Below, one piece after another: positions 1,520-8,236 of a stretch of 64,000 nt of DNA. The DNA lies in NCBI GenBank assembly GCA_020072585.1, contig JAIQGL010000020.1:1-64000 (forward strand), in the 5' to 3' direction. The translations under genes and the position numbers were made by a program. The first letter of the stretch is position 1, and every line of letters starts with the position of its first letter. This DNA is from Terriglobia bacterium. Lineage in GTDB: Bacteria; Acidobacteriota; Terriglobia; Terriglobales; Acidobacteriaceae. Under the pieces are notes generated by a model. That model made no database searches. It worked only from the letters and a program-made list of their open reading frames with translations, and had not been told where the DNA came from.

Positions 1520-2509
1520 TTGAGCTCAGCAACCATTCCCAATACCAAGCCTAAATATGAACCCAAGATGGGTGTGGCCACGCGCGAGGCCTACGGGCAA
1601 GCGCTGGTTGAGCTGGGCACGATCAATCCTAACGTCGTGGTGCTTGACGCTGATCTGGCCAAGTCAACGTTCAGCGCCAAATTTCAGAAGGTATATCCCG
1701 AGCGGTTCTTTACTGTGGGCATTGCTGAGGCCAACATGGTTTCCATTGCCGCAGGACTGGCGCTGGCGGGAAAGCTGCCGTTTGCTTCGTCGTTCGCGGT
1801 CTTTCTCTGCGACAAAGGTTACGACCAGCTCCGCGTGGGTGCGGCCTATTCACGTGCGAACGCCAAATATGTTGGCTCGCACGGCGGCATCTCAATCGGC
1901 GAGGACGGCCCGAGCCAGCAGTCAGTAGAAGATTACGCGCTCATGTGCGCACTGCCCGGCTTTATCGTGCTCAGCCCTTCTGATGAGTTCTGCGCGCGCG
2001 CCCTGGTGCGCCGCATGGCGGAGCATGAAGGTCCGGCGTACATGCGCACCGGACGCCCCAAGACGGCAATCATCTATGGCCCGGATGACACGTTTGAGAT
2101 TGGCAAAGCCAAGCAGCACGGCGATGGGCGCGATGTGGCGATTATCGCGTGCGGGCTGGAAGTGAACTACTCGCTGGAGGCGCAGGCGCTGCTTGCCGGT
2201 GAAGGCATTGACGCCCGCGTGATCGACATGCACACCATCAAGCCCGTGGATGAAGCTGCAATCGCCAAAGCCGCGGAAGAGTGCGGCGCAATCGTCTGCG
2301 CGGAAGAGCATCTGCTGGATGGAGGACTGGGATCACAGGTAGCGCGCGCGGTGGGCAAATCGCGTCCGGTGCCAATGGAGTTTGTGGGAATCCAGAACAC
2401 ATACGCTGAATCCGCTACGCCAGAGCAGTTGATGGAGAAGTACGGGCTGACAGCGCCATTTATCGTGAAGGCAGTGAAGGCCGTGCTGAAGCGGAAAAGC
2501 CGGACATAA
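1520..2509 (+). CDS. Transketolase, C-terminal (pyrimidine-binding) subunit
   Basis: This is the Pyr plus C-terminal half of a split transketolase, pairing with the product of 383-1252. Motifs seen are VVLDADLAKST, TVGIAEANM with the catalytic Glu that activates ThDP, and the GSHGGISIGEDGPSQQ loop with VEDYALM. The longest frame opens at 1469, but I prefer the TTG at 1520: AAAGGAG at 1507-1513 lies 6 nt upstream, and the 17 residues before it are unlike the family. That start gives 329 residues. The alternative ATT/ATG-like starts upstream cannot be excluded. Catalysis needs both subunits because the active site forms at their interface. Confidence 0.93.
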   Translation: MSSATIPNTKPKYEPKMGVATREAYGQALVELGTINPNVVVLDADLAKSTFSAKFQKVYPERFFTVGIAEANMVSIAAGLALAGKLPFASSFAVFLCDKGYDQLRVGAAYSRANAKYVGSHGGISIGEDGPSQQSVEDYALMCALPGFIVLSPSDEFCARALVRRMAEHEGPAYMRTGRPKTAIIYGPDDTFEIGKAKQHGDGRDVAIIACGLEVNYSLEAQALLAGEGIDARVIDMHTIKPVDEAAIAKAAEECGAIVCAEEHLLDGGLGSQVARAVGKSRPVPMEFVGIQNTYAESATPEQLMEKYGLTAPFIVKAVKAVLKRKSRT

Positions 2510-2635
2510 AGGCCGGAGTTACAACTTCCCAAAATAGAACACGACATCGTTTTAATTTGAAAATTTCTTCTGCCGTTGTGATTGGCCGCGCATATACTAA
2601 CGAAGGTTTTTGGATCGATTGAACGAGGTTCTGCC

Positions 2636-2794
2636 ATGACAAAAAATACGCTGAACAATTTCTCAACTCTGGCTCTGGGCGAAGAGGGTCATACGACGTC
2701 GATCATAGGCGAAGAAGACTTTTCGGCGCACGCCGAAACAGAACGCAAACTTCACACTGACGGCCGAAAAGGCGGGCCGTTCGGCGCCTACTAA
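2636..2794 (+). CDS. Candidate graspetide (omega-ester RiPP) precursor, plesiocin-like
   Basis: A 52-residue peptide beginning MTKNTLNNFS, with GAGG at 2625-2628 seven bases before the ATG. Residues 10-17 read STLALGEE and 20-27 read TTSIIGEE: two copies of the TTxxxxEE pattern, one with Ser in the first position. TTxxxxEE is the core of plesiocin-type (group 2) graspetides, in which Thr/Ser side chains are esterified to Glu side chains by an ATP-grasp ligase. The tail, residues 28-52, is charged and ends GGPFGAY, with no further repeat. The ATP-grasp gene starts 27 bp downstream, which is the main support. An in-frame TTG at 2582 would add 18 residues but lacks a ribosome site. The function is inferred; whether the motifs are core or leader-recognition sequence is open. 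Confidence 0.75.
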   Translation: MTKNTLNNFSTLALGEEGHTTSIIGEEDFSAHAETERKLHTDGRKGGPFGAY

Positions 2795-2821
2795 ATATTC
2801 CTGTCCCGGAAATCTGAATCC

Positions 2822-3697
2822 ATGGCGTTCCTGCTGGCCGGCGGTCATGAGGACCCCAATCTAACCGTTCTGGCGCATGCCGCGCAAAGAACGAATGTGG
2901 AGTTGCTGGACGTGCGGCTGCCTGTTTCAGGGAGCCATGCATTCTGCTGGAATCCCGATGAAGGTGCGGCGCGGTTTGCCGGCAGAGAACTCAAGGCCAC
3001 TGCCGGGTTCATTCGTCACGACGTGTTCGGCGGGATGAATGATCCCAGGCCCGAAGTTTCCGCTCGAGCCTATGCCTGGTACCAGACGGTGATGGGCTGG
3101 CTTCTATCTGAGCCGCAGATCCGGATCTTCAATCGCCGGATGTCACCGGTTGCAACCAATAAGCCGGCCTCGTTGGTGCTCGCCCGGAAGGCCGGCCTGC
3201 GCATACCGCCGACCATGATCACCAATCAAGCGGGCAACTTCCACGGCCAGCAATTGGAGTCCATGATCGCCAAGCCGGTGGGCGGCGGTGATTACTGTTA
3301 CTCTCTGGCAGACGCGTTAGCCAAAACAGATCTGCGCAGCGGACTGGCGGCGAGTCCGGCCATCGTGCAGAAACGCCTGGCGTCTCCAGAGGTGCGTATC
3401 TACGTGATCGGGCAGTCCGCCTTTGCCTTTGAAGTGCGCAGCAGCTCACTGGACTATCGCGTGAACCAGGACGCCGAGCTCATCCTGTTGCCGGAAGTAC
3501 CGCAGGAGCTATCCATGCTGCGGCAATTGATGTCACAGTTGGGCCTCGACTTCGGCGCAGCCGATTTCAAGACTGATCCAGATACCGGTCACCTCGTCTT
3601 TCTGGAGTTGAATACCTCGCCGATGTTTGCGCGGTTCGATCAGGTCAGCGGTGGACAACTCTGTGCCGCCATCATCCACGAATTGATGGCGGAATAG
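2822..3697 (+). CDS. MvdD/PsnB-type ATP-grasp peptide macrocyclase
   Basis: A 291-residue enzyme of the RimK-like ATP-grasp family that makes side-chain ester or amide bonds in graspetides. The N-terminal domain (about 1-110) resembles the substrate-binding half of microviridin ligases. The ATP-grasp part shows ATNKPASLVLARKAG (Lys114), IAKPVGGGD (Lys151, nucleotide binding), VQKRLASPEVRIYVIG (Glu190, Arg192), FGAADFKTD (Asp248) and the Mg-binding FLELNTSPMF (Glu262, Asn264). It lies 27 bp after the putative precursor in an apparent two-gene operon. No exporter, protease or acetyltransferase is adjacent, so maturation and export would use genes elsewhere. The ATP-grasp assignment is sure; the graspetide role rests on context and precursor motif. 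Confidence 0.88.
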   Translation: MAFLLAGGHEDPNLTVLAHAAQRTNVELLDVRLPVSGSHAFCWNPDEGAARFAGRELKATAGFIRHDVFGGMNDPRPEVSARAYAWYQTVMGWLLSEPQIRIFNRRMSPVATNKPASLVLARKAGLRIPPTMITNQAGNFHGQQLESMIAKPVGGGDYCYSLADALAKTDLRSGLAASPAIVQKRLASPEVRIYVIGQSAFAFEVRSSSLDYRVNQDAELILLPEVPQELSMLRQLMSQLGLDFGAADFKTDPDTGHLVFLELNTSPMFARFDQVSGGQLCAAIIHELMAE

Positions 3698-3803: not shown

Positions 3804-4748
3804 TCAGCGCCCGTTCAGAAAATCTTCCAGCACGGTAACGTATTTTTCCAGCTCTTCATATGCGGGCAGATGGCCGCTCTTCTCAAAAAAGACGATCTTT
3901 GCTCCCGGAATCGCATGTGCCAGCCGCCACGCCGTAAGCGGCGCAACGTTCATGTCATACCGGCCGGTAATGACCAGCGCAGGGAACTTGAAACCGGCAA
4001 GCTTTTGCGTCAGGTCCAGATCGGTGGTTGCTTTTGCCACTGCTTCGGCCACTGCGGGCTCGTATCCCAGATCGCCCATGCGGCCCATGTAGGCGTCACG
4101 CTTTTCCGGCGAATAAAAGATCATGCGGAAGTGGTTGCGCAGGCTGGCGCGGGCCGCCGCGTCGGTTGCGGGACCAAGCTTTTTCTCCTCCTGCGCATTC
4201 TCTTCTTCAATGTCAGGAAAGACCTCCGGCAGCACGTGCACAATGCTCTTCCATGAAGGGCCCGGTGAATCGGAGAGCACCAACTTGGCCACGTGCTCAG
4301 GATGGGCCGCCGCATACGCCATCACCAGCAGACCGCCGTAAGAGTCGCCCAGCAGCGCAACTTTCTCCAGGCCAAGCGCCTGCCGGACTGCGTCCAGATC
4401 AGCCACCTGCGCGTCCATTGTTTGAGAGAGTGTCGCCTGGGCCGCTCCTGATTGAAGCCGCTTCGATGCGCCGGTGCCACGCTGGTCATACAGCACCACC
4501 ATGCGATTTTTGGCCACGCGCTCCCAAACGTCATTCTGCACCATGTAGGCATGGGAAAGTCCGGGCCCGCCATTTACGGCGATCACAGGAAGCGCCGTGG
4601 CAGCCGCTCCCGGAGTTCCCGCCGGGCCAAAAGTTTCATAGGCGATATCGACCTGGTCGGTGTGGGCCACGCCTTTCGCGTGCGCAACGGGTTGCGCCGT
4701 CACGTTCAGGGAGCAGAGAAAAAACGCGGACACAGTTATCAGCTTCAT
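3804..4748 (-). CDS. Secreted alpha/beta hydrolase, proline iminopeptidase-like (S33)
   Basis: An alpha/beta-hydrolase fold enzyme resembling prolyl aminopeptidases, which remove N-terminal proline or hydrolyse related amides/esters. It has the oxyanion NGGPGLSH, YDQRGTGAS, the nucleophile elbow GDSYGG, the acid TGRYDMN and the catalytic KSGHLP near the end. The first residues, MKLITVSAFFLCSLNVTAQP, form a signal peptide, so it should act in the periplasm or outside. The reading frame runs open to 4913, but those 55 extra residues precede the signal peptide, so I take the ATG at 4748, giving 314 residues. The substrate cannot be told from sequence. Confidence 0.9.
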   Translation of the reverse strand: MKLITVSAFFLCSLNVTAQPVAHAKGVAHTDQVDIAYETFGPAGTPGAAATALPVIAVNGGPGLSHAYMVQNDVWERVAKNRMVVLYDQRGTGASKRLQSGAAQATLSQTMDAQVADLDAVRQALGLEKVALLGDSYGGLLVMAYAAAHPEHVAKLVLSDSPGPSWKSIVHVLPEVFPDIEEENAQEEKKLGPATDAAARASLRNHFRMIFYSPEKRDAYMGRMGDLGYEPAVAEAVAKATTDLDLTQKLAGFKFPALVITGRYDMNVAPLTAWRLAHAIPGAKIVFFEKSGHLPAYEELEKYVTVLEDFLNGR

Positions 4749-4917
4749 CAAAGCAGTGGACCTCTCAATATCAATATCAAGGATGGAGCGAGGATAGCAG
4801 AACCCAGGGTGGAGGGGAGCTTTTGGATAGTGGTGCAGTTTGAATATTCCGCCTTGTTGCAGTGTCTGCACAAGTCGGTGATCTTTGCTCGCAGCAATCG
4901 TGTTCTCTTCCACTGAT

Positions 4918-4990
4918 CGTCATCCCGAATCCCCGTCAACGAGCGCGCGCTTTTACCAGCGCGTGAGTAGGGGTGAGGGACCTTGCGTTG
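4918..4990 (+). repeat. Dispersed GTCATCCCGAA...GAGGGACCTTG repeat
   Basis: Starts CGTCATCCCGAATCC, contains GAGCGCGCGC and CAGCGCGTGAGTAGG (partly self-complementary) and ends GGTGAGGGACCTTG. Same head and tail as the copies at 16651, 18578 and 40673. Confidence 0.65.
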
Positions 4991-5330: not shown

Positions 5331-5679
5331 GTTTACCCTTTTCCGGCTCTCTTTCTGGATCAGTGTTATCAGCGTTGATCAGCGGTAAGGTTTGGCCCTG
5401 GTTTTCAATGATCTTGCGCACGTTCGCGCAGCTTCATCCTAGCCGATTTTTGGTTACGAACAAAGCACGAATTGGTACATCTTGACAAAACGCTCCTGCG
5501 GCGCTGTTCGTTTTCGCGCACCCCTGTGGAATGCAGTCCCGCCTTGATGCGCCAGCTCCCAGAAGGGAGCGGAAGAGCCTGGCCCAGGCGCGGAAGCCCT
5601 CGAATCGATGGACTCAGAAATAGTCCCCGCCCCGGCACGCGCTGATGCTTGCGCGTGCTGGGTTGAAAGGGGGACTTGG

Positions 5680-5866
5680 TTCGTATCAGGGCACCAGCCC
5701 AGCCCTCGCTTTCAAGCGGGGGTGAGCGAAGCGAAAGGTGCCGTCCGAACACATACTTTTTGGTTCGTATCAGGGCACGAGCCCAGCCCTCGCTTTCAAG
5801 CGGGGGTGAGCGAAGCGAAAGGTGCTGTCCGAACACATACTTTTTGGTTCGTATCAGGGCACGAGC
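5680..5866. repeat. 84-bp tandem repeat, two full copies plus a partial third
   Basis: Unit 1 at 5680-5763 and unit 2 at 5764-5847 differ at only two positions. A third copy begins at 5848 and diverges after 19 bases. Each unit opens TTCGTATCAGGGCAC and ends CACATACTTTTTGG. There are no spacers, so it is not a CRISPR array. The surrounding 5.3-5.9 kb has no supportable gene. Confidence 0.85.
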
Positions 5867-5894
5867 TTCAGTCGTGCCGTCGCGGAGTATTAAA

Positions 5895-5917
5895 TTCAGG
5901 GGCTTTTAGCCCCTGAA
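5895..5917 (-). terminator. Perfect 10-bp hairpin downstream of the 5922-6230 gene
   Basis: TTCAGGGGCT (5895-5904), a TTT loop, then AGCCCCTGAA (5908-5917). It sits just after the stop of the minus-strand gene at 5922-6230. The T-run following it on the minus strand is poor (TTTAATAC), so it could equally be a mobile repeat palindrome. Confidence 0.4.
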
Positions 5918-6720: not shown

Positions 6721-8236
6721 CCCAGCGCGTAAGAGGGTGTTACGAAACACATTGCAACCACTGTTGGCAAATTGCTGAATCTTAGAGTGACCGCTGCAAC
6801 AGAACGCGAAGATGTTTAAAGATCTTCAGGCTAGCGCAAACTTTGCCGCCAGCAATGAACCGCCCAGAATGTTGATCATGCGTTTCAAGTTGTAAGCCAT
6901 GACTCCCAAACTGATTTCTGTTTGTGCTCCCCTAGTCCCGCGCAACAGGAATCGCGGATGTCCGAAGATCTGATATTTCAGCGCAGCAAATGGGTGTTCT
7001 GCAATCGATCGCCGCAGCCGCATCGCTTTCGCCGTGGCTCGTTGCTGCATGCGCTCCAGCGCTCCATCCTGCTGGTGCTTCTTCAGTAACCGACGTTTAC
7101 CTACAGTACAACGCGACTTCAGAGGACACGCCCCGCAGACCTCCGGCGGAGCCGCGTAGACCATGTAGCGGTCCTTGCGCTGACGCCGATTCAGACGCTG
7201 TCCTGCTGGACATAAAAATGTGTCGCTGGCCTCCTCATAAAGAAACTGGCTGCGCTGAAACAGGGTCCCGTCTCCACGATTGTTCACTCCTCGGTTCGCC
7301 GGCACGTGCGGAACGATTCCCTTGCTCTCGCATCTTTCCGCCTGTTCTCCATTTGAATAGCCCGCATCTGCCACCACGTTCAGCTTTTGTCCCGGCTCGC
7401 TCACCGCAGCTTGCGCTGCTTCCGCCATCGGCTCCAGACTGCGATTATCCGTGGCTTCCGTGCTTACCTGCTGCGCCACAATCAGAGCATGTTCGGCATC
7501 CACCGCGGTTTGCACGTTGTAGGCCGGAACCTTGCCAGCGGGGGTGCGCATAAAGCGGGCTTCCGGCTCGGGATGCTGCTTTAGTTTCTCCAGCGCTGCC
7601 GCTACCGCTGCTGAATCAATCTCCACTTCTTCCTCAGCATCGGCCTGCTCCATCCCCTCCAGATACCGCTCCAGCGCCCTGCGCTCATGCACGCTTTGGC
7701 TGCTGCTCACGGCGCGAAATTTTGATCCATCGATGGCCACCCACTCGCCCCTCACCAACCCGACAGAACGGGCAAACCGAATCAGTTCCGCTCCCGCATC
7801 CGTTACCGCCGCACCATGCAACCGCCGGAACTCGGCAATCGACTTATGGTCCGGCGCTAGCCGCCCCAGCAACCACATCACCTCAATGTTGCGCTGGCAC
7901 TCGCCTTCCAGCCTTCGCGACGAACGGATCTGATGCAGGTATCCGTACAGATAGAGCCTCAGCAAATCGCGTGGATCATATCCCGGCCGCCCCGTCTCGG
8001 CAGCTTCGGCGCGCGCGAATCCCAACCTCTCCATATCCAACCTGCCGACAAAGGCATCGATCACTCGGCACACATGATTTGCCGGAATCAGTTCCTCCAG
8101 CGTCACTGGAAACAGCGTGCCCTGCTTCCTTCCCACTCCTTGGATATAAGCCATGCCTTGCTACTCGCTCCTGCCCGAATCTTCTCATTCTTTTGTGCAA
8201 CGTCAAGAGTTTCGTAACGGCCTCGTAAGCGCTGGG
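6721..8236 (-). mobile_element. IS1182-family insertion sequence with long imperfect terminal inverted repeats
   Basis: The ends are 6721-6748 and 8209-8236. Read inward, both start CCCAGCGC and finish GTTACGAAAC, matching at 24 of 28 positions. They enclose a single transposase gene with 70-80 bp margins. The short bases outside (TTAG at 6717-6720, TAAG at 8237-8240) do not form an exact target duplication. The element boundary is my inference from the repeats; the true tip could be the inner GTTACGAAAC, with the outer part belonging to a palindromic target. Confidence 0.8.
6826..8154 (-). CDS. IS1182-family transposase
   Basis: 442 residues with the N-terminal DUF772 region (PANHVCRVIDAFV, GRPGYDPRDLLRLYLYGYL, IRSSRRLEGECQRN) and a DDE catalytic core: VAIDGSKFRAV (first Asp), VVADAGYSNGEQ (second Asp) and SIAEHPFAALKY (Glu). 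A Cys-containing insert (CPAGQRL...CGACPLKSRC) is usual for this family. The frame is complete with no stops, so the element may be active. It catalyses cut-and-paste or copy transposition between the terminal repeats at 6721 and 8236. The bases from 8237 to 8526 show no gene. Confidence 0.95.
   Translation of the reverse strand: MAYIQGVGRKQGTLFPVTLEELIPANHVCRVIDAFVGRLDMERLGFARAEAAETGRPGYDPRDLLRLYLYGYLHQIRSSRRLEGECQRNIEVMWLLGRLAPDHKSIAEFRRLHGAAVTDAGAELIRFARSVGLVRGEWVAIDGSKFRAVSSSQSVHERRALERYLEGMEQADAEEEVEIDSAAVAAALEKLKQHPEPEARFMRTPAGKVPAYNVQTAVDAEHALIVAQQVSTEATDNRSLEPMAEAAQAAVSEPGQKLNVVADAGYSNGEQAERCESKGIVPHVPANRGVNNRGDGTLFQRSQFLYEEASDTFLCPAGQRLNRRQRKDRYMVYAAPPEVCGACPLKSRCTVGKRRLLKKHQQDGALERMQQRATAKAMRLRRSIAEHPFAALKYQIFGHPRFLLRGTRGAQTEISLGVMAYNLKRMINILGGSLLAAKFALA

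Follow-up and report, generated by a model that had tools for sequence, protein, structure and literature searches.

A putative acidobacterial graspetide locus in which a C-terminal recognition tail is proposed to replace the N-terminal leader

The natural order of a graspetide precursor is described as one with an N-terminal leader (PMC13003496). A Phhx(1,2)h motif is found in about half of graspetide precursors, typically within the first 30 residues (PMC8939145), so an N-terminal leader motif is not strictly defining for these peptides. The original 24 graspetide groups have been joined by 19 new ones; groups 27, 28, and 35 comprise only a ligase and a precursor, and groups 34 and 35 have long repeat precursors (PMC13097080). 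Plesiocin (PsnA2/PsnB), with its tandem Thr-Thr-xxxx-Glu-Glu cores, inhibits serine proteases (PMC13097080) and carries two esters per repeat (PMC12291112). In fuscimiditide (ThfA/ThfB), the key recognition tetrapeptide of the leader is RPFG, of which PFG is a part. In natural ThfA the leader is N-terminal and 67 residues long, and the donors are Asp rather than Glu. Shifting this leader to the C terminus, in an engineered variant with the core first and the leader last, still guided ThfB at about half the rate (PMC13003496). ThfB has made a Ser-Asp cross-link (PMC12291112), which makes Ser plausible as an acceptor. A natural RiPP in which a follower replaces the leader is bottromycin (PMC10885120), although its enzymes and chemistry are different. 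In literature titles and the openings of abstracts, with the group lists of surveys excluded, we found no natural graspetide that is recognized at its C terminus or guided by a follower or by a leader placed C-terminally. The words "acidobacteria," "PrcB," and "PFG" do not occur in the main text of PMC8939145.

The locus described here lies in the window, a 64,000-nucleotide stretch from a 6.9-Mb Terriglobia genome. A sequence-only reading had placed a 52-residue peptide with the motifs STLALGEE and TTSIIGEE 27 nt upstream of an ATP-grasp enzyme, and this was confirmed. The precursor gene occupies positions 2636 to 2794 of the plus strand (coding sequence 2636 to 2791 and TAA 2792 to 2794). 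After 27 nt, the ATG of the 291-residue ligase, a proposed graspetide synthetase, follows at 2822 on the same strand, and the gene ends at 3697 including the stop codon. Core motif 1 (STLALGEE, 2663 to 2686) differs by one residue from TTLALGEE of a PsnA-type precursor (locus L046). Core motif 2 (TTSIIGEE, 2693 to 2716) corresponds to TTTITGEE in the related locus L003. A charged, variable spacer (2717 to 2773) aligns with a stretch of L003 that contains three extra motifs. The last six residues, GPFGAY (2774 to 2791), form the proposed C-terminal recognition element, or follower. At least one [ST]T....EE motif was present in only 2 of 1,249 stop-to-stop frames of the window (at least 30 residues each), and the precursor alone had two. 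At least two motifs arose in 0.014% of 200,000 shuffles of the 52-residue peptide.

The precursor reading frame is kept in relatives and appears to be under purifying selection, judged from substitution rates that rest on short sequences. Between the window and L003, dN was 0.13 and dS was 0.73 over the alignable parts (47 of 52 codons, the first 38 and the last 9). The corresponding values were 0.052 and 0.119 for L011 and L024 over all 62 codons, and 0.15 and 0.54 for L011 and L023 over the last 33 codons. To the left of the pair is a transketolase ORF, identified by Pfam, which is itself preceded by another ORF that looks transketolase-like by eye; to the right, on the opposite strand, is an alpha/beta hydrolase. 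At L003 the neighbors are instead a glyoxalase-type protein and an Obg GTPase, so only the ligase/precursor pair is common to these two loci. This comparison covers the window and L003 only. No cleavage or export gene was recognized adjoining the window pair, and scans for promoters, terminators, upstream alignment, and Rfam families gave nothing useful. Elsewhere in the window, at 5405 to 5909, ORF translations contain repeats (LSLRSPPLESEGWA.ALIRTK) shortly 5' of a transposase-like ORF (6826 to 8154).

The ligase had been assigned to the MvdD/PsnB type. This held for the fold but not for formal family membership. The best NCBIfam match was TIGR04187, the family of TgmB (SAV_5884 family), with 92.6 bits against a cutoff of 350. 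MvdC (51.1 bits; cutoff, 425), MvdD (48.4 bits; cutoff, 475), and RimK (29.5 bits; 4.5e-7) were likewise below their cutoffs, and no Pfam family matched at an E value of 0.01 or less. The L046 ligase differed in this respect, matching RimK of Pfam at 4.9e-14. A sequence search of the PDB returned PsnB (7drm) at the top with 9.8e-15, making it the nearest solved ligase. Most of the AlphaFold2 model of the ligase was confident. In a Foldseek search with this model, ranks 1 to 24 were taken by PsnB, AMdnB, PruB, MdnC, and a Chryseobacterium RiPP ligase, before LysX at rank 25 and RimK from rank 37. Judged from sequence matches and the predicted model, the graspetide feature of a RiPP-type ATP-grasp ligase is thus met, and grouping with nonpeptide ATP-grasp enzymes, which would have counted against the graspetide reading, was not seen.

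Homologous ligases were sought in 100 relatives (including G000), of which four (G000, G001, G004, and G006) matched at an E value below 1e-100. Further searches covered 399 genomes of the class, 396 of the phylum, and two overlapping sets of 377 and 282 genomes from the phylum of G443 and G444. A contig search gave four ligase loci, two of which were the G001 and G006 loci over again. A pattern matched 26 stretches of viral contigs, none of them a relative, and all 36 plasmid records were below 60% identity. As a separate observation on plasmids, L079:1904-2302 on Sinorhizobium americanum plasmid B encodes three repeats of the ITTKT/IQTKT...ESDD/EGDD type, directly followed by an ATP-grasp ORF; both are annotated as hypothetical.

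In a 28-row tree, the window ligase and those of L003, L011, L023, L024, L052, L025, L026, L044, L045, and L083 made up one side of a branch with a support of 100/100 and a length of 1.08. The ligase was thereby placed, as had been proposed for it, yet in a clade that excludes the PsnB type, the group with TgmB, and others. Clustering with PsnB, which would mark the plesiocin group (group 2), was not met, whereas TTxxxxEE repeats, the other mark of that group, were met, with two motifs and with Ser replacing the first Thr in motif 1. The root is a midpoint used for drawing only, labels were given by eye (10 rows as C-terminal, 7 as N-terminal leader, and 11 of 28 unlabeled), and ThfB is omitted. 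The 11 ligases come from 10 genomes of Acidobacteriota and Myxococcota (G000, G001, G004 with two, G006, G348, G443, G444, G512, G618, and G1033), and several of the loci are metagenome assembled. The clade is sparse in the genomes sampled. It could be one of the groups of PMC13097080.

Immediately 5' of 10 of the 11 clade ligases is a precursor that is small or rich in repeats. Absence of the peptide next to homologous ligases would have refuted the graspetide reading, which is instead supported by this pairing and by the Foldseek ranking, with the cross-links remaining inferred. The exception is G348, whose ligase (L052:4933-5811; G348:C259) is directly 3' of a DUF1259 protein; no precursor was detected in its 11.8-kb contig, by protein search, or by either tail pattern. 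ORFs next to distant ligases in L029, L032, and L048 that terminate in PFG or close to it were attributed to chance and excluded from the precursor count. Two other ORFs located just 5' of distant ATP-grasp ligases (L034 and L042) are of low complexity and, in two phyla, have FIRPEERP.V.ER near the C terminus in common.

Clade precursors vary in length, N terminus, and motif number, with strict [ST]T....EE counts from 0 to 23. At least one strict motif is present in six of the ten: two in the window, five in L003, one in L023, nine in L025, seven in L026, and 23 in L083. None occurs in L011 and L024, which have the variants TTNLLEE and TPAVMGAE, or in L044 and L045, which have KTMAIPEE twice (2368 to 2577, minus strand, in both). 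This variant has Lys in the first motif position, which might give amides. Two motifs and a Ser start, which the sequence-only reading had listed as unusual, vary within the family, judging from this set; the unusual point is the position of the tail, which that reading missed. The gap between precursor and ligase is 27 nt in the window and L003, 23 nt in L011, L023, and L024, 6 nt in L044 and L045, and 2 nt in L083, and the genes overlap or touch in L025 and L026. N termini follow MT[EK].. in five of the ten (the window's genus), MAETTKK in two, and MAEKKSK in one. A long upstream region with similarity to PrcB_C distinguishes two (L025 and L026). The first motif begins at residue 10 to 15 in five precursors and at 28 to 29 in three. 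In L025 the repeats (4003 to 4986) come after a weakly PrcB_C-like region (17.1 bits, not reaching the cutoff of 24). In L026 (4025 to 4986) a PrcB_C protein (27.1 bits) is encoded in a separate frame just 5' of the repeats and adds three strict motifs to the seven of the repeat frame, a split that could be an assembly frameshift. The longest array belongs to an acidobacterium of a different class (L083:2409-3440, minus strand; G1033), with 23 TTxxxxEE motifs in 334 residues. Outside the clade, L047:452-1492, without a Pfam match, encodes a longer ORF (MKALSFVGYSKEF...) that ends with two TTMAVGEE motifs.

On alignment, the segment common to clade precursors is the tail. It reads GPFGAY in six of the ten (window, L003, L011, L023, L024, and L025), NPFGGF in L083, GPFG in L026, and KAFGEK, without the proline, in L044 and L045. 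Its codons vary between precursors, and the L083 tail was found only after the tail idea had been formed. A degenerate pattern for PFGAY plus stop gave six matches in 14 genomes, all directly 5' of a clade ligase, and the backwards pattern gave none in the same genomes, which had been picked because they carry the clade or belong to the same genus. Across 299 genomes of the class, the pattern gave 14 matches, three at known ligases (G000 and twice in G004) and 11 elsewhere. Two of these 11 end in TGG (Trp, no stop), and none of their frames contains [ST]T....EE. The 11 are apparently background, because the backwards control gave 21 matches (12 forward and 9 reverse) in the same set. The pattern alone is not rare, and its coincidence with a ligase is what counts. 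A looser pattern in six genomes gave seven matches, five of them with TGG and two with a genuine stop codon; the latter two lie at ligases (G000 and G1033). Chance presence of the tail was rejected.

An N-terminal leader with a recognition motif was not met in the ten precursors, in which the PFG-type motif is C-terminal. All ten lack an LFIE-type leader like that of PsnA, and a regular expression for Phhx(1,2)h found no match within their first 30 residues; PFAEQ at residue 13 of L023 does not match it. PFGAY itself fits the published motif only if Gly is taken as hydrophobic. The known systems have a different layout. L046 is the psn locus, with a ligase identical to 7drm over all 314 residues. 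Its precursor begins with the N-terminal leader ELKELFIEDLGQVTGG, followed by the cores, and L049 has the same plan. In two Acidobacteriota loci on the PsnB side of the tree (L084 and L085), MRELFIEELEEV.GG precedes a TTMACCEE core. In TgmA from two Streptomyces plasmids, RPW[VA]LRF lies ahead of the end region, and RPW.LRF precedes the core; the window ligase also belongs to a lineage separate from TgmB. A PFG ending was absent in these six comparison precursors. As a side observation, L084 and L085, from two acidobacterial genomes of one genus, combine a PsnA-type leader with a Cys-rich core (PTTMACCEE).

The locus is, in our judgment, probably a graspetide locus of a separate branch in which the order is reversed: the cores come first, and a C-terminal recognition tail, whose binding is inferred, replaces the leader. 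An ordinary graspetide with a very short recognized N-terminal leader (MT[EK]...) and a tail of other purpose is unlikely. The five precursors of the window's genus do have this N terminus in common, and the characterized leaders named in the cited papers are all N-terminal. However, the N terminus differs in L025, L026, L044, L045, and L083, which belong to the same ligase clade, and the tail is what they have in common. We also consider it improbable that the tail is retained on the product for target binding, localization, or stability rather than for ligase recognition. The absence of a recognized protease gene adjoining the pair would suit retention, as would a terminal aromatic residue that could face a protease, but conservation across products of very different cores and the likeness to RPFG of ThfA (PMC13003496) speak against it.

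An enzyme like RimK that adds amino acids to the peptide instead of cross-linking it is very unlikely: both the RimK family and RimK structures match, yet RiPP ligases rank above RimK in sequence and structure, and the Thr/Glu pattern of the motifs suits ester formation. Hardly credible is a second core in the tail region, even though the spacer offers Ser, Thr, Lys, Glu, and Asp. The spacer is variable, and GPFGAY, which lacks Thr, Ser, Lys, Glu, and Asp, offers neither an acceptor nor a donor and so is not a core. The sequence-only reading had left the tail as a second core, a follower, or a recognition element; the core falls away, and a recognition follower is proposed from conservation and likeness to leader motifs. 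Structure prediction did not help to place the tail. When AlphaFold2 modeled the precursor, joined to the ligase by a 10-residue linker, as one chain, residues 1 to 28 and 34 to 58 had pLDDT values below 50. This is a weak test, with the precursor covered by 2 of 21 rows and a short linker.

For the preferred tail-guided locus, the ligase would bind the precursor through its last residues (PFG plus an aromatic residue), and the flexible spacer would give the N-terminal motifs access to the active site. ATP would serve to phosphorylate Glu side chains, which hydroxyl groups of Thr/Ser in STLALGEE and TTSIIGEE would then attack. As in plesiocin, each motif could carry as many as two nested esters, for a maximum of four (-72 Da), and KTMAIPEE could give an amide and an ester. 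Tail removal and export have no explanation in this scheme. Sequence evidence shows that the two genes are paired and conserved, that the tail is conserved, and to which fold class and clade the ligase belongs; the cross-links and their number, tail binding, and later tail removal are inferences. By analogy with plesiocin, a protease inhibitor is a first guess for the product, because the TLALGEE part of motif 1 is also found in the first PsnA core of L046 and serine proteases are inhibited by plesiocin. We counted against our interpretation the missing precursor of G348, AFGEK without proline, the four precursors of ten without a strict motif, the conditional fit of PFGAY to Phhx(1,2)h, the absence of a recognized cleavage or export gene, and the lack of bench data. 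The unplaced precursor in the AlphaFold2 chain was taken as contrary or neutral evidence.

Graspetide mining and engineering follow the rule of leader first and core last. If a natural clade does carry its tag at the C terminus, loci of this kind would be easy to miss: the window ligase has no Pfam match at an E value of 0.01 or less, and the motif lies beyond the first 30 residues, the region in which leaders are looked for. We lean toward the view that a natural synthetase clade of Acidobacteriota and Myxococcota has lost the N-terminal leader and uses a PFG tag of about six residues at the C terminus, leaving the N terminus free for up to 23 motifs or a PrcB_C-like folded domain. If true, nature would have been ahead of the leader-to-follower engineering of 2026, and a very short tag (about six residues versus the 67-residue ThfA leader) would be available for modifying N-terminally free peptides or proteins. 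A natural clade with C-terminal tags would also mean that the position of the leader evolves.
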